DNA of 36,895 nt from Alphaproteobacteria bacterium. GTDB taxonomy: Bacteria > Pseudomonadota > Alphaproteobacteria > CACIAM-22H2. The notes below the pieces were generated by a model that worked only from the letters and a program-made list of their open reading frames with translations, was not told the origin of the DNA and searched no databases. The stretch covers positions 1 through 36,895 of the forward strand of contig JAEUKZ010000092.1 in NCBI GenBank assembly GCA_016793045.1, written 5' to 3'. Position numbers and translations under genes: made by a program. Positions 3,713 to 33,711 of this stretch are shown in pieces (position 1 is the stretch's first letter; each line of letters opens with the position of its first letter).

Positions 3713-4963
3713 TCAATGCATGTTGGCGGGCACGTTGCGGAGCCACACATGGCGGCGCCAGTACAGCCCGACGAGGACGGTGAGCAGCGCACCCGAGATG
3801 CCGTAAACCGTCGACATGGCCGCGAACCCGAAGCGATCGATGATGGGGCCGGATGCGATGAGGCCGAGCGGCAGGCCGTAGACGGCCAGCACGCGCAGCC
3901 CCATCACGCGGCCGCGAAAGCTCGCATCGGCAACGCGCAGCAGGACGACCGACATCGGCACCATGCACAGGTTCTGCAGGAATCCGCAGAGCGCCAGGAT
4001 CAGCAGCGCGTCGACGGCCGAGCCGGCCAGCGCGAGCGCGACGATCGAGCCGTACCAGAGAACGCCGCAGACGATCATCGTGCGCGCCGCCGGGATGCCG
4101 CGCCTGCTGACGCCGAGCGCGATCGAACTCACCAGGGCGCCGCCCGAGAACGAGGCGACGAGATAGCCGAGCCATGCCTGGTCGAGGTGGTAGACGTCGC
4201 GGGCGACGTAGGGCAGCAGGCCCAGGAAGATCGGCAGCGCCGTGACGTTGACCAAGAAGGCCAGCGTCATGGCGGCGAGCAGGGCCGGCGTCCGCGCGAC
4301 GTAGGCTGCGGCGTCGCGAATGTCGCGCCAGGGCGACGGGCCCGCCGGGCCGCCCGCGACCGCCACCGGCCGCGCATGCCTGATCCGCACGAAGAGCGTC
4401 AGCACCGTGCTGGCCGCGTACAGCCCGACGATCGCGAGATAGGCGGTGCCCATGCCGACCGCCGCCACCAGCCCGGTGCCCACCAGCGCGCCGGCGATGC
4501 GCGCCGAATCCGACGTCGTACGCGAGATGCTGACCGCGGCCATCAACTGGCCGTGGGGGATGATCGCCCCGATCAGCGCATTGCGCATCACGAGGTCCGA
4601 AGGCCGGATGATGCCGGCGAGGGTGGCGACGACGAAGACGAGCAGCGGCCCGGCGGCGCCCGCGAGGAGACCGATCGCCAGGGCGCCGGCGAGGAGGACA
4701 TAGGACGCGCGCATCGCGCAGAGCACGTTGCGGTGGCCCATCCGGTCGCCGGCGACGCCGAAGGCCGGCGCGATCAGCGTGCCGAGATACTGCAGGCCCC
4801 CGAACGCCGTCAGCAGCAGCACCGATCCGGTTTCGACCAGGACGTACCAGCCGAGGATGATGATCTCCATTTCGGCCGCCCACGACGTCGCAAGGTCGGC
4901 GGCCCACTGGAATCGGAAGTCGCGGAAGCGAAACGGCCCGGCGGACTGCTCGGGGCGGGGCAT
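3713..4963 (-). CDS. MFS transporter, probable exporter (EntS/MFS_3-like)
   Basis: Inner-membrane protein of 416 aa with about 12 hydrophobic segments in two halves. The loop between helices 2 and 3 carries the major-facilitator motif A as GDRMGHR. A conserved opening (FRFRDFRFQWAADL) and early helices (EMEIIILGWYVL) resemble the MFS_3 group, which includes the enterobactin exporter EntS and many drug exporters. The last residues, after WRRHVWLRN, form a short cytoplasmic tail. The gene is divergent from the sulfatase-family hydrolase at 5206 across 242 bp. No regulator is adjacent. The cargo cannot be predicted; proton-coupled efflux is inferred from the family. Confidence 0.87.
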   Translation of the reverse strand: MPRPEQSAGPFRFRDFRFQWAADLATSWAAEMEIIILGWYVLVETGSVLLLTAFGGLQYLGTLIAPAFGVAGDRMGHRNVLCAMRASYVLLAGALAIGLLAGAAGPLLVFVVATLAGIIRPSDLVMRNALIGAIIPHGQLMAAVSISRTTSDSARIAGALVGTGLVAAVGMGTAYLAIVGLYAASTVLTLFVRIRHARPVAVAGGPAGPSPWRDIRDAAAYVARTPALLAAMTLAFLVNVTALPIFLGLLPYVARDVYHLDQAWLGYLVASFSGGALVSSIALGVSRRGIPAARTMIVCGVLWYGSIVALALAGSAVDALLILALCGFLQNLCMVPMSVVLLRVADASFRGRVMGLRVLAVYGLPLGLIASGPIIDRFGFAAMSTVYGISGALLTVLVGLYWRRHVWLRNVPANMH

Positions 4964-26843: not shown

Positions 26844-26860
26844 CTAGGGAGGAGACAACG

Positions 26861-28126
26861 ATGATATCGCGCAGGCGCTTCAGCAAGATCGCGGCCGGAA
26901 CCGGCCTGGCACTCGCCGCTCCCGCACTCTCGACGTCTTCATTGGCCCAGGCGCAGCCGATCAAGATCGGCACGAGCATCTCGCTCACCGGGCCGCTTTC
27001 GGGAACCAAGAACGCGCTGACCGGCTATCAGCTCTGGCGCGACGACGTAAATGCGGCGGGCGGGTTGCTCGGCCGGCCGGTCGAACTGGTCACGTACGAC
27101 GACCAGAGCTCGCCCGCGCAGATTCCGGCCATCTACTCGAAGCTCGTCGACGTCGACCGGGTCGATCTGCTGATCTCGCCCTATGGCGCCGTGCTCTCGG
27201 CGCCGGTCATGCCGTTCGTCAAGCAGCGCGACCTGTTCCTCGTCGGCATGTTCGCGCTCGCGGGCAACGACACGGTGCGGCACGACAAGTACTTCCATGC
27301 CTGCCCATGGGGGCCGAACTCGCAGGTGAACTGGGCGCGCGGCTTCTTCGACCTCGCGCGGGCGGCAGGTTGCACGAAGGTCGCGATCATGTCGGCGGAC
27401 ATCGAATTCGCGAAGATCTCGGCGGCCGGCGGCAAGGCGATTTCCGAGGAATACCGGATGTCGGTCGTCTACGACCAGAGCTATCCGCCAAATCAGACCG
27501 ACTTTTCGGCGATCCTGCGCAACATCCGCGCCGCGCAGCCGGAAGCCGTGTTCGTGTGCTCCTACCCGCCGGACAGCACGGCGCTCATCCGCGGCCTGTC
27601 CGAGGTCGGGATCGGCGACAGCGTGAAGATCTTCGGCGGCTCGATGATCGGCCTGCAGTATGCGTCGCTGCTGGCGAATATCGGGCCCGCGCTCAACGGC
27701 ATCGTCAACCTGCACCTCTACGTGCCGGAACCGACGATGCGCAACCCGGCGATCGACGGCTTCCTGGCGCGCTATGAACCGCTCGCGCGTGCGCAGCAGC
27801 TCGATGCGCTCGGCCATTACGTCCCGCCGTTCTGCTATGCCGCGGGCCAGATCATCGAGGCCGGCGTCAAGGGCGCCAACACCCTCAACCACGCGCAGAT
27901 TTCACGCTATCTGCACGCCAACCCGGTCCAGACGATCGTCGGGCGCGCCACGTTCAACGAGCTTGGCGACTGGACGGAAAAGCGCGTCTTGATGGTCCAG
28001 TTCCGCGGCATCAGGGGCCGCGACGTCGAACAGTTCCGCCAGCCCGGCCGGCAGGTCATACTCGACCCGCCCCCGCTGCGCACCGGCGAACTGGTTGCGC
28101 CATTCGGCGCGGCGCGCTCCGGCTAG
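26861..28126 (+). CDS. Branched-chain amino acid-type ABC importer, periplasmic binding protein (LivK-like)
   Basis: Periplasmic receptor of 421 aa, type I binding-protein fold (Peripla_BP_6). A twin-arginine signal (SRRRFSKIAAG, then LALAAPAL) precedes the mature IKIGTSISLTGPLSG. DDVNAAGGLLGRPVELVTYDD and the late YVPPFCYAAGQIIEAG are family motifs. SD AGGGAGGAG precedes ATG 26861. Liv-type receptors outside the amino-acid group often bind aromatic acids or amides, which fits the regulon here. The gene is bracketed by two intercistronic hairpins, a pattern that usually raises receptor mRNA above the membrane components. Confidence 0.93.
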   Translation: MISRRRFSKIAAGTGLALAAPALSTSSLAQAQPIKIGTSISLTGPLSGTKNALTGYQLWRDDVNAAGGLLGRPVELVTYDDQSSPAQIPAIYSKLVDVDRVDLLISPYGAVLSAPVMPFVKQRDLFLVGMFALAGNDTVRHDKYFHACPWGPNSQVNWARGFFDLARAAGCTKVAIMSADIEFAKISAAGGKAISEEYRMSVVYDQSYPPNQTDFSAILRNIRAAQPEAVFVCSYPPDSTALIRGLSEVGIGDSVKIFGGSMIGLQYASLLANIGPALNGIVNLHLYVPEPTMRNPAIDGFLARYEPLARAQQLDALGHYVPPFCYAAGQIIEAGVKGANTLNHAQISRYLHANPVQTIVGRATFNELGDWTEKRVLMVQFRGIRGRDVEQFRQPGRQVILDPPPLRTGELVAPFGAARSG

Positions 28127-30758: not shown

Positions 30759-31500
30759 AGGGCTGGAAGCGGGCTACGGCGCGGTGTCCGTGCTGCGCGG
30801 CATCTCGATCGAGGTCCGCCAGGGCGAACTCGTGGCGCTGCTTGGCACCAACGGCAACGGCAAGAGCACACTGCTCAACGCGATCCTCGGCTTCGTGCGC
30901 CCGACTGCGGGGCGCGTGGTGCTGGAATGGGACGGCCAGACGATCGACCTCACCGGCGCGCCGCCGCACCGAATCGTGGACGCCGGCATCGCGCTGGTGC
31001 CCGAAGGGCGCCGGCTTGCGCCCAATCTCACCGTCGAGGAGAACCTGCTTCTGGCGGGCAGCGGCCGACGGGCGCGCCGCGACGCGCGGCGGAACCTCGG
31101 ATTCTGCTTCGAGACGTTTCCGATTCTCAAGGAGCGCCGCGCTCAGCGTGCCGCGACGATGAGCGGCGGCCAGCAGCAGATGCTGGCGATCGCGCGCGCA
31201 TTGATGACCTCGCCGCGCATCGTGCTCATCGACGAGCCTTCGCTCGGCCTCGCACCGATCGCGGTAACGCAGGTCATCGCCACGATCCGTTCGCTCCAGG
31301 CGACGCAGAACCTCACCATCGTCATCGCGGAACAGAGCGTCGTGCAGGCGATCGACATCTCGGCCCGGGCCTATGTGCTCGCGCACGGAAGCATCTTGCG
31401 GACCTTCGCGCGCGGCGACTCCGCGGCCGATCTCGACGACATCCGCCGTGCGATGCTGGGCGTCGGGGAGAGCCGGCGGCCGACCGAAGCGGCGCAGTGA
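30739..31500 (+). CDS. Liv-type ABC importer ATPase, LivF-like
   Basis: Cytoplasmic ATPase of 253 aa, last gene of the IclR-controlled importer operon. Walker A GTNGNGKST, signature MSGGQQQML, Walker B IVLIDEPSLGLAP and the switch region IVIAEQSVVQAI are all intact and typical of LivF. GTG 30739 lies inside the end of the LivG-like gene and begins VNRLVIEGLEAGYG, the family's normal N-terminus; an upstream frame extension is spurious. No plus-strand terminator with a T tract is visible after it. Confidence 0.94.
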   Translation: MNRLVIEGLEAGYGAVSVLRGISIEVRQGELVALLGTNGNGKSTLLNAILGFVRPTAGRVVLEWDGQTIDLTGAPPHRIVDAGIALVPEGRRLAPNLTVEENLLLAGSGRRARRDARRNLGFCFETFPILKERRAQRAATMSGGQQQMLAIARALMTSPRIVLIDEPSLGLAPIAVTQVIATIRSLQATQNLTIVIAEQSVVQAIDISARAYVLAHGSILRTFARGDSAADLDDIRRAMLGVGESRRPTEAAQ

Positions 31501-31585
31501 TCGCGCCGACGATGTGCGCCGAACCGACGATCCGGAGATGACGTGATGCGGGCCGCGCCGCACATCCCCGGGCGAACTTCGCCTG

Positions 31586-31622
31586 AAAAAAAGTCGGCCG
31601 CCGGATCGGAGATCCGGCGGCC
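31586..31622 (-). terminator. Intrinsic terminator, minus strand
   Basis: A perfect 12-bp G+C-rich stem (31596-31607 with 31611-31622), three-base loop, then GAC and seven T on the minus strand. It ends the trxB-lysR transcript and/or the candidate small RNA. On the plus strand the stem is preceded by A and not followed by T, so it should be weak for the Liv operon. Confidence 0.85.
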
Positions 31623-31744
31623 AAGTTGAACAGGGAGGCTTCACGTCTGGGAGACGTCGGGTCCGAAGACCCGTGCCGCCGAACCTCGGTCCGGCAGCGC
31701 CAGCGATGCTGCGTCGCAGCAGCGCTGCGTTAAGAAATAGGCTG
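31586..31744 (-). ncRNA. Candidate structured small RNA or lysR 3'-UTR RNA
   Basis: Read on the minus strand, consecutive hairpins occur. The first pairs 31701-31705 with 31723-31727 and, inside, 31707-31711 with 31717-31721. A GCCG/CGGC helix around 31675-31695 comes next. Then a CGGGTC-TTCG-GACCCG stem with the ultra-stable UUCG loop (31658-31673), and ACGTCT-CCC-AGACGT (31643-31657). An unpaired stretch with CCTCCCT (31632-31638), complementary to a Shine-Dalgarno site, precedes a 12-bp terminator stem followed by seven T. A weak promoter candidate (TTGTCT, 18 bp, TTTACT; plus 31751-31780) lies just upstream. Exposed CUCCC-type motifs are a feature of known alphaproteobacterial small RNAs, but I cannot assign a family. 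It may instead be processed from the lysR transcript. Confidence 0.5.
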
Positions 31745-31817
31745 CCCAGAAGTAAAAGGAACCGCTGATTTCGCAGACAAGGCATGCATCGTCCGCATGC
31801 AATCGCCTGCAGAATCG

Positions 31818-32711
31818 TCAGAACTGCGCTTCCGAAACTTTTCTTATGAGGAAGTCGCGGAACACCGCGATCCGCTTGGAATTGCGCAGTTCTTCCGGGT
31901 AGACGAAATAGGATTCATAGGACGGCCCCTCGAGCTCGGGCAGCACCTGGGTGATCCGGTCACTCTCCTGAACCATGTAGTCCGGGAAGGCCGCGATGCC
32001 GATCCCGTTCTCGACCGCACGCAGGATCGCATAGACGTTGTTGACCATCAGCGCCGGTTCGCGCCGCCGCCCGGGTTCGGTGCCCGCCTCGAGCAGCCAG
32101 TTGACGCCGGGGAATGGCGGGTGCGGATCGGCGCCGTAGACGATGATCCGGTGCTTGTCGAGATCGGCCGAGCTGCGCGGCGTGCCGTGGCGCTTGAGAT
32201 AGGCCGGTGCGGCGAAGACGTGGACGTGGATCGTGAACAGATGGCGCTGGATCAGGTCGGCCTGGCGGGGCGGCTGCATGCGCACGGCGCAATCGGCTTC
32301 GCGCATCGACAGGTCGAGTTCGGCGTCGTCGACGAGCAGGTTGACCTGGATGTCGGGATGCTGGTCGACGAAATCCTTGAGCCGCGGCGTGAGCCACACC
32401 GAGCCGAAGGTGACCGGCGTGGTCACGCGCAGCAGGCCTGAGGGGCGCTGCGTGCTCTCGCCGATCTGCGATTCGGCGGTGGCCAGCTTGGCGAAGACCT
32501 CGCGCACGGTACGATGCAGCAGCTCGCCCTGCTCGGTCAGGATCAGACCGCGCGCGTGGCGGTGGAACAGCGGGGTCTTGAGCGAGTCCTCGAGCGCGCT
32601 GATCTGCCGGCTGACGGCGGACTGGCTGAGATTGAGCGTGTCGCCGGCATGGGTGAAGCTCCCGGCCTCGGCGACCGCGTGAAATATGCGCAGCTTGTCC
32701 CAGTCCATCAT
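31818..32711 (-). CDS. LysR family transcriptional regulator
   Basis: DNA-binding regulator of 297 aa. The helix-turn-helix is at the N-terminus (DKLRIFHAVAEAGSFTHAG, LNLSQSAVSRQISALEDSL), and the two-lobed substrate domain follows from about residue 90 (LRVTTPVTFGSVWLTPRL, AVENGIGIAAFPDYMV). ATG 32711 or 32708 (MMDW) can both start it. It lies 34 bp downstream of trxB on the same strand, a pairing seen in other alphaproteobacteria, so it is probably co-transcribed with trxB. Its targets are unknown. About 200 nt of structured sequence and a strong terminator follow its stop. Confidence 0.93.
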   Translation of the reverse strand: MMDWDKLRIFHAVAEAGSFTHAGDTLNLSQSAVSRQISALEDSLKTPLFHRHARGLILTEQGELLHRTVREVFAKLATAESQIGESTQRPSGLLRVTTPVTFGSVWLTPRLKDFVDQHPDIQVNLLVDDAELDLSMREADCAVRMQPPRQADLIQRHLFTIHVHVFAAPAYLKRHGTPRSSADLDKHRIIVYGADPHPPFPGVNWLLEAGTEPGRRREPALMVNNVYAILRAVENGIGIAAFPDYMVQESDRITQVLPELEGPSYESYFVYPEELRNSKRIAVFRDFLIRKVSEAQF

Positions 32712-32745: not shown

Positions 32746-33711
32746 TCACTGCGCGGCGAGCGCGAGCGATTCGTGGTGGGCGAGGAAGCGCTCGGCCTCG
32801 AGCGCCGCCATGCAGCCCATTCCGGCTGCGGTGACGGCCTGGCGGAAGACCTTGTCCTTGACGTCGCCGGCGGCGAACACGCCGGGGATGTTGGTCGCGG
32901 TCGAATCCGGCTTGGTTATGGCGTAGCCCTCGGCGTCGAGGTCGATCTGGTCCTTGAAGAGCTCGGTCGCGGGCGTATGCCCGATCGCGATGAACAGTCC
33001 GTCGACGGCGATCGTTCGTGCCGGCCCGCCGGCGAGGTCGCGCAGCTTGAGGCCGGTAACGCCCGGCGGCTCGGCGGTGCCGAGCACCTCGTCGACCGCG
33101 GCGTTCCAGATCACCTCGATCTTGGGATTCTTGAACAGGCGGGCCTGATTCGTCTTGTCCGCGCGCAGCGAGTCGCGGCGATGAATCAGCGTCACCTTCG
33201 CCGCATGATTGGTGAGGTAGAGCGCTTCCTCGACCGCGGTGTTGCCGCCGCCGACGACCGCGACCTGCTTGTTGCGGAAGAAGAAGCCGTCGCAGGTCGC
33301 GCAAGCGGATACGCCGAAGCCGCGATACCTTTCCTCGCTCGGCAGGCCGAGCCAGCGCGCCTGCGCACCCGTGCAGATGATCAGGGTTTCCGCCTGGTAG
33401 ATGTCGCCGCCGTCGCCGATCGCCGTGAATGGGCGCCGCGACAGGTCGACCTTGGTGATCGTGTCCTCGATCAGTTCGGTGCCGACATGCTGGGCCTGGG
33501 CGGCCATCTGGTCCATCAGCCACGGCCCTTGGACCGCTTCGGCGAAGCCGGGATAGTTCTCGACCTCGGTGGTGATCGAGAGCTGGCCGCCGACCTGGAT
33601 CCCGCGGACGAGCAGGGGCGACAAATTGGCGCGCGCAGCGTAAATCGCTGCGGTGTAGCCGGCCGGGCCAGAGCCGAGAATCAGGACTTTCGTGTGGCGT
33701 GTCGTAGGCAT
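32746..33711 (-). CDS. trxB: Thioredoxin reductase
   Basis: Cytoplasmic NADPH-dependent flavoenzyme (321 aa) that reduces thioredoxin. FAD-binding GSGPAGYTAAIYAARA is at about 13-28; the redox-active pair is C137 and C140 (ACATCDGFFF), matching C135/C138 of E. coli. The NADPH-binding VVGGGNTAVEEA follows, and the second FAD motif is IPGVFAAGDVKDKVFRQAVT. Length and all motifs fit the low-molecular-weight bacterial enzyme. Transcription starts in the 111-bp gap shared with the divergent Lrp-type gene and probably continues into lysR. Confidence 0.97.
   Translation of the reverse strand: MPTTRHTKVLILGSGPAGYTAAIYAARANLSPLLVRGIQVGGQLSITTEVENYPGFAEAVQGPWLMDQMAAQAQHVGTELIEDTITKVDLSRRPFTAIGDGGDIYQAETLIICTGAQARWLGLPSEERYRGFGVSACATCDGFFFRNKQVAVVGGGNTAVEEALYLTNHAAKVTLIHRRDSLRADKTNQARLFKNPKIEVIWNAAVDEVLGTAEPPGVTGLKLRDLAGGPARTIAVDGLFIAIGHTPATELFKDQIDLDAEGYAITKPDSTATNIPGVFAAGDVKDKVFRQAVTAAGMGCMAALEAERFLAHHESLALAAQ

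Follow-up and report, generated by a model that had tools for sequence, protein, structure and literature searches.

On the minus strand of the window (the whole stretch of 36,895 nucleotides that was analysed), next to a trxB-lysR gene pair, lies an element that is very probably the gene of an independent, trans-acting small RNA. It appears to be the counterpart of AbcR1 in Rhodospirillales-type bacteria, activated by an LsrB/VtlR-type regulator and built on a different RNA body. AbcR RNAs control nutrient uptake in bacteria that live as plant symbionts or as pathogens of animals and plants. In the proposed mechanism, the neighbouring LysR protein would bind ATGC-N7-GCAT at about -64 and activate the RNA, which would be transcribed from its own promoter and end at its own terminator. 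Its two CUCCC motifs, of which the first lies in a hairpin loop and the second is single-stranded, would cover GGGAGG ribosome-binding sites by analogy to AbcR1, presumably with the use of Hfq. The targets would most likely be uptake and catabolic genes, and a PhaR-type site covering the transcript's first bases may make the RNA subject to repression that depends on carbon storage. As far as the literature search reached, the novelty lies in the lineage, in the RNA body and in the fixed PhaR-type site, an RNA of this kind being known already. That search brought up no RNA described at this locus in bacteria other than Rhizobiales, and most subscription papers, including PMC5846693 on VtlR conservation in the class, lay beyond it.

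Fold and boundaries of the RNA

The initial annotation had described minus-strand hairpins with a 12-bp stem, a seven-T tract, a UUCG loop, a CCUCCCU motif and a CUCCC loop, and all of these were found at agreeing coordinates (Table 1). Five consecutive hairpins are predicted on the minus strand within 31586-31744, the last being the perfect 12-bp terminator stem followed by seven T, and 31480-31900 contains no second terminator-like site. The folding energy of the 159-nt stretch was -83.6 kcal/mol, against a mean of -58.3 in 200 dinucleotide shuffles (z -5.4, 0/200 as low). Within the window RNA, the unpaired probability was 1.0 for the CCC in the loop of the CUCCC hairpin and about 0.8-1.0 for UCCCUGUU. 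The outer limit was revised: the element had been taken to reach 31744 and to lie about 200 nt downstream of lysR, and the start is now predicted near 31727, 91 nt from the lysR stop.

Table 1. Positions of the RNA, its parts, the candidate promoter elements and the adjoining genes
Feature	Position	Strand	Basis or remark
Small RNA, 141 nt predicted	31587..31727	-	Fold; putative start; 3' end inside the T tract 31586-31592
5' hairpin, overlapping the PhaR-type palindrome	31701..31727	-	Fold
Second hairpin	31675..31698	-	Fold; sequence not kept among relatives
cUUCGg hairpin CGGGUCUUCGGACCCG; C(UUCG)G loop within GGGUCUUCGGACCC (31659-31672)	31658..31673	-	Helix 1 of R1
ACGUCUCCCAGACGU hairpin; CCC in loop, first anti-Shine-Dalgarno motif; CUCCC loop 31645-31655	31643..31657	-	Helix 2 of R1
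GCCUCCCUGUUCAACUU, second anti-Shine-Dalgarno seed and linker, mostly single-stranded; CCUCCCU 31632-31638	31623..31639	-	Alignment, fold
Intrinsic terminator; 12-bp stem 31596-31622, T7 tract 31586-31592	31586..31625	-	Helices 3 and 4 of R1
PhaR(AniA)-type site TGCGACGCA (YGCRNYGCR) inside palindrome TGCTGCGACGCAGCA (31707-31721), about +10 to +18	31710..31718	-	80 nt after box start
Predicted -10, TATTTC within CCTATTTC	31734..31739	-	39 promoters aligned on box
Predicted -35, poor fit to family consensus	31756-31761	-	39 promoters aligned on box
GCATGCCTTGTCT, 6/7 positions of GCAT-N3-TG-N3-T, about -60 to -48	31775..31787	-	Published VtlR/LsrB consensus
ATGCGGACGATGCAT, LysR-type palindrome T-N11-A (ATGC-N7-GCAT), candidate LsrB/VtlR box, centre about -64	31784..31798	-	Upstream-region comparison
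lysR, LsrB/VtlR group, proposed small-RNA activator	31818..32711	-	PDB 9hh1 match; trxB-lysR order
trxB, thioredoxin reductase, first gene of the conserved trxB-lysR pair	32746..33711	-	TIGR01292, 400.5 bits, above cut-off

Conservation and covariation

A BLAST search with the 159 nt found homologues in 27 of 41 genomes (own genome included) and 13 of 25 genera. The core alignment comprised 26 of the 30 BLAST loci, with L002, L013, L017 and L018 omitted as near-copies. From the CUCCC hairpin through GAAGCCUCCCUGUUCAACU the alignment is nearly invariant, the GCCUCCCUGUUCAACUU region being invariant or almost so across all 26 members, and the stems and terminator vary. Because RNAalifold gave a poor structure of 13 pairs on the raw alignment, the structure was written by hand for R1, a covariance model of the RNA core. 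R1 matches the window at 31587-31678 with 82.8 bits and has 57 matching places across the window and 80 named LysR loci; named and unnamed loci come partly from the same genomes (for example L005/L031, L017/L032 and L003/L033).

All 22 modelled pairs change on both sides with pairing preserved, including 6/6 in helix 1 and 10/10 in terminator helices 3 and 4, and 90.7% of cells are paired (96.8% in helix 2) against 70.0% in shuffles (0/500 as high) and at most 53% when the pairing was slid; these counts were taken from the alignment fitted to R1 and are hence biased towards it. The compensatory changes that the initial annotation proposed to look for in relatives are thus present in 22/22 core pairs, and its minus-strand small RNA with anti-Shine-Dalgarno motifs is supported by conservation, by this covariation and by the nearly invariant seeds. 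Judged from sequence comparison, the element is a conserved small-RNA gene rather than a chance fold. The UUCG loop to which weight had been given is present in the window but not kept among relatives, which have other loops; on the alignment it is an incidental feature, and what is conserved is the CUCCC hairpin with the linker GAAGCCUCCCUGUUCAACU. A coding role was ruled out, since loop and terminator lengths vary by non-multiples of three.

Tandem R1 RNAs were seen at L046, L048 and L109 (about 3.5-4.5 kb), most with their own LysR-type box, and recall the AbcR1/AbcR2 tandems. The search of the plasmid collection gave no match for the Azospirillum copy.

The LysR neighbour and synteny

The LysR protein encoded in the window matched the LysR-family regulator of PDB entry 9hh1 at 6.4e-103, the next entry following at 5.4e-33. 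The initial annotation had named lysR with neither its LsrB/VtlR type nor a link of the RNA to AbcR1. The aligned 9hh1 sequence has four cysteines spaced like C144, C236, C244 and C273 of Agrobacterium tumefaciens LsrB (PMC11975290), and 9hh1 is presumably LsrB itself. In the window protein the cysteine matching C144 is retained, and a valine stands at the position of C273; because the equivalent of this key residue is absent, the inducing signal may differ. Genes of the DUF1127 type are known VtlR targets (PMC12595884).

The gene trxB adjoins lysR in most related loci. Beyond trxB lies an Lrp-type gene, and on the other side of the RNA a converging liv-type operon, of which the livF-type gene ends at 31500. 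The RNA thus lies downstream of a pair of the trxB-lsrB/vtlR type, as AbcR1 does; in A. tumefaciens the gene order is trxB-vtlR/lsrB-abcR1-abcR2 (PMC7486931). When named genomes were scanned with the LysR alignment, 80 loci were obtained, and R1 matches were present in 52 of them, 50 at most 800 nt downstream, invariably on the lysR strand. The 28 loci with no R1 match include some that are ended by contig ends. Seen from the RNA, this LysR gene lies upstream on the same strand in 20 of 29 loci (the 30 less the window's own).

The candidate promoter

The regions upstream of 56 R1 matches and of the window RNA were searched for the palindrome, and a perfect ATGC-N7-GCAT was found in 39 of these 57, compared with 0.77% of shuffles and 3 of 51 downstream controls. 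The consensus-box, PhaR-motif, alignment and spacing tests used 55 matches and the window, one L109 match at 4056 being omitted, and the promoter alignment and spacing tests were narrowed to the 39 regions with a perfect box. The consensus of these 39 promoters was AGCYATGCR-N5-YGCATR-N-CTG-N3-T, followed by an AT-rich patch, TGG around -35 and CYTATNT around -10. From this -10, the transcription start is placed near alignment position 72, corresponding to about 31727 in the window.

The right half of the palindrome together with the following TG and T equals the published VtlR/LsrB consensus GCAT-N3-TG-N3-T (PMC7486931; also PMC8844928), which had been derived independently. All 7 positions of this consensus were matched in 15 of 56 regions; shuffles reached this in 2.8% and downstream control regions in 2 of 51. 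In the abcR1 promoter of Sinorhizobium meliloti, to which LsrB binds and for which it is required, the box occupies -61 to -49 and the -10, of RpoD type, is CTATAT (PMC8844928); relative to the predicted start, the family box occupies -60 to -48. Two features of the window count against the proposed regulation: its box has 6 rather than 7 of the consensus positions, and its -35 is poor.

The distance from box to RNA core was 55-174 nt (sd 25) in the 39 perfect-box promoters. Box and -10 travel with the RNA where lysR is 0.6-2 kb away (L038, L044, L046 and L048), and the tandem RNAs at L046, L048 and L109 have separate boxes. The initial annotation had left it undecided between an independent and a 3'-UTR-derived RNA. 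Of the two, an independent RNA is now favoured, as the box keeps to the RNA and tandem copies have their own, and a 3'-UTR origin is disfavoured.

The PhaR-type site

YGCRNYGCR is the core of the S. meliloti PhaR/AniA consensus (PMC12542648). Of 56 regions, 28 had it in the 120 nt preceding R1, where 4.5 would be expected, and in 15 of the 39 perfect-box promoters, the window included, its first base follows that of the box by 79-82 nt, despite the variable distance from box to RNA core. Counted from the box the spacing is rigid and places the motif at about +10. A PhaR gene is encoded in the window's own genome; its presence does not discriminate, the gene being found in 15 of 16 cases with the motif and 20 of 22 without it.

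The PhaR-type palindrome doubles as the 5' hairpin of the RNA and could be an RNA hairpin only, with no operator function. An operator is preferred because L032, L046, L048, L066 and L070 keep YGCRNYGCR without complementary arms, but only L032 among these five promoters is near the 80-nt offset, and the box of L032 is imperfect. The fixed PhaR-type site suggests a carbon-storage input, with repression by PhaR put forward as a proposal; such a site would directly wire carbon storage to uptake control.

Comparison with known RNA families

At gathering thresholds no Rfam family was found in the window and none at all in 20 further R1 loci, and no match coincided with the R1 RNA in the further R1 loci searched. 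A permissive search of the window gave suhB/MmgR as the best match (RF00519, 25.8 bits, gathering 41), followed by F6 (17.7 bits), ar14 (17.5 bits), BjrC1505 (RF02356, 17.0 bits, gathering 50) and SorX (RF02784, 15.8 bits, gathering 46.6; best relative 42.6 bits, also below). The family comparison suggested by the initial annotation gave a likeness to suhB in the CUCCCU-ACUU-terminator arrangement and no alphaproteobacterial family at gathering. For ar15/AbcR (RF02345, gathering 40 bits) the window was unmatched at gathering and up to E 10; a search of the whole genome with RF02345 also returned nothing anywhere, and as its controls were silent too it was not counted as evidence of absence. 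Given R1 matches at E <= 0.001 in 177 genomes out of a class sample of 385, and no Rfam match at gathering in any member checked, the family merits a dedicated model.

The ar8 RNAs (MmgR, SisA-D; the suhB family) share with the window RNA a CUCCCU linker, ACUU, a terminator and a PhaR motif near the promoter. The ar8 10-mer UUUCCUCCCU (PMC12559287) is absent from the window, which has GAAGCCUCCCU instead. SorX of Rhodobacter sphaeroides has the CCUCCCUGUU core before its terminator, as does the window RNA; it derives from the 3' UTR of ompR-1 (PMC8625941), whereas the neighbour gene in the window is a different one and an own promoter is predicted. SmelC671/sm84 of Rhizobiales, compared by description only (PMC3927594), likewise has a long single-stranded region, containing conserved CUCCCUGU, between variable hairpins. 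In BjrC1505 the GCCUCCCUGUU-AAC-GCCGCCGG-terminator stretch aligns with the window, but the 5' structure does not fit.

A true suhB/MmgR-type RNA was found elsewhere in the genome, at L143:1516-1585 (contig C47), with 56 bits, above gathering; the window RNA is thus not the genome's MmgR. Upstream of this suhB-type RNA is a PhaR-type motif, TGCAGTGCG. The genome also has weaker siblings of the RNA core at L141:1501-1573 (C154) and L142:1501-1573 (C394), with R1 scores of 38 and 32.5 bits and SorX scores of 32.0 and 27.6 bits, below gathering. An int-alpA RNA (RF02996, 50.9 bits) lies near one family member, at L128:74-141.

Alternative explanations

That the RNA is simply another ar8 (SuhB/MmgR/SisA-type) RNA which adjoins lysR by chance, with no special tie to AbcR or LsrB, is considered unlikely. 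Its best Rfam match and its CUCCCU-ACUU-terminator layout are those of suhB, MmgR also has a PhaR site (PMC12542648) and several ar8 siblings per genome are usual (PMC12559287). The score nevertheless stays under gathering where the copy at L143 exceeds it, the 10-mer is missing, and an LsrB-type box is tied to the window RNA type. Cleavage from the 3' end of the trxB-lysR mRNA, as SorX is cut from that of ompR-1, would agree with the shared strand and the short gap to lysR, and with a SorX whose core is similar and itself 3'-UTR-derived (PMC8625941), relatives reaching 42.6 bits with its model. This origin is judged quite improbable, since box and -10 accompany the RNA even at loci with a distant lysR and the tandem copies have separate boxes. 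A bare lysR terminator region, with no regulatory RNA, would account for a strong terminator facing the convergent liv operon and its livF-type gene; it leaves unexplained why the GAAGCCUCCCUGUUCAACU linker is invariant, why the CUCCC hairpin covaries and why a promoter is predicted for the RNA itself, and can be given hardly any credence.

Candidate targets

AGGGAGG, fully complementary to CCUCCCU, precedes the ATG of the liv-type solute-binding gene that starts near 26876 (window 26847-26880), and livK is repressed by AbcR1 in S. meliloti (PMC3712013). In the own genome, 4 of the 9 genes with ACAGGGAGG-N3..10-ATG encode solute-binding proteins, judged by sequence. Across loci from 23 genomes the proportion was 18/31 (by eye with Pfam support), against 13/27 for a control with permuted prefix (CAAGGGAGG) and about 11/24, by eye only, for another ribosome site (ACAAGGAGG). 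For the three sites about 100, 125 and 61 matches were listed, of which the 37, 30 and 30 accompanied by loci were read; ORFs shorter than 60 aa had been excluded before counting (6/37, 3/30 and 6/30). In these 23 genomes the RNA complement was not separable from control ribosome sites and no target class emerged; target enrichment was dropped as evidence, the control sites being about equally rich in solute-binding genes.

Relation to AbcR

AbcR1 (ar15, RF02345) of S. meliloti and A. tumefaciens and AbcR2 of Brucella likewise lie directly downstream of trxB-lsrB/vtlR, and the LsrB-type box of AbcR1 is about as far from its start as the candidate box of the window, with 6 of 7 positions, is from the predicted start. 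AbcR1 and the window RNA each expose one anti-Shine-Dalgarno motif in a loop and another as a single strand, and each has its own terminator (PMC8844928). The seeds differ, being CUCCC and CCUCCCUGUU in the window and CUCCUCCC and UUCCCCUC in AbcR1, as does the order of hairpins (PMC8844928). AbcR1 carries CUCCUCCC in a 5' loop and UUCCCCUC unpaired, whereas both motifs of the window RNA are in its 3' half (PMC8844928). Unlike AbcR1, 15 of 39 R1 promoters have a PhaR-type site added.

In 30 Rhizobiales LysR loci, R1 scored at most 16.1 bits throughout. The AbcR motif pair CCTCCC...TTCCCCTC was found downstream of lysR in 11 of the 30; loci are termed AbcR-like here on the motif pair (CCTCCC, 15-45 nt, TTCCCCTC), with no model match implied. 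Rfam at gathering gave no match in 20 of the 30 loci. The ar15 model exceeded gathering in L101, one of 18 loci searched, and stayed below it in L110 and L103. In L158, L164, L167, L169/L103, L087, L095 and L106 an LsrB-type box, imperfect in some of them, precedes CCTCCC by 80-94 nt. On a quick tree of 111 LysR proteins, a single change separates 53 R1 loci from 17 AbcR-like loci; when the other loci are counted, 19 changes are needed.

We read these likenesses as one slot common to both types, in which the body of the RNA has diverged or been replaced; the window RNA is not assigned to ar15, whose model it does not match. The wider proposal seems to us evenly balanced, namely that one slot, consisting of trxB-lsrB, an LsrB box at -60 and an anti-Shine-Dalgarno RNA, extends across Alphaproteobacteria, with the RNA body changed once to or from AbcR and a PhaR operator at +10 either gained or retained in some Rhodospirillales-type lineages. 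If so, seeds, hairpins and targets would have been re-cut under a fixed promoter, one RNA would read LsrB state and carbon-storage state together, and the LsrB-RNA circuit would predate Rhizobiales; the cultured and harmless genera Azospirillum, Thalassospira and Kiloniella, which have the locus (A. brasilense L053, Thalassospira L046 and L048, Kiloniella L039), would then serve as test beds.

Further RNAs were observed behind boxes of this type. At L108:3394-3930, downstream of lysR, tandem CUCCC-rich RNAs are R1-negative, each with an ATGC-N7-GCAT box, and score 30.6 and 27.9 bits with ar14 (gathering 58.8). CUCCC-rich RNAs behind a LysR-type box were also seen at L105:3547-3674 and L097:2714-2838, with weak likeness to ar7 (35.3 bits) and ar14 (33.4 bits), below gathering; going by these last two, RNA bodies of more than two kinds may occupy the slot.
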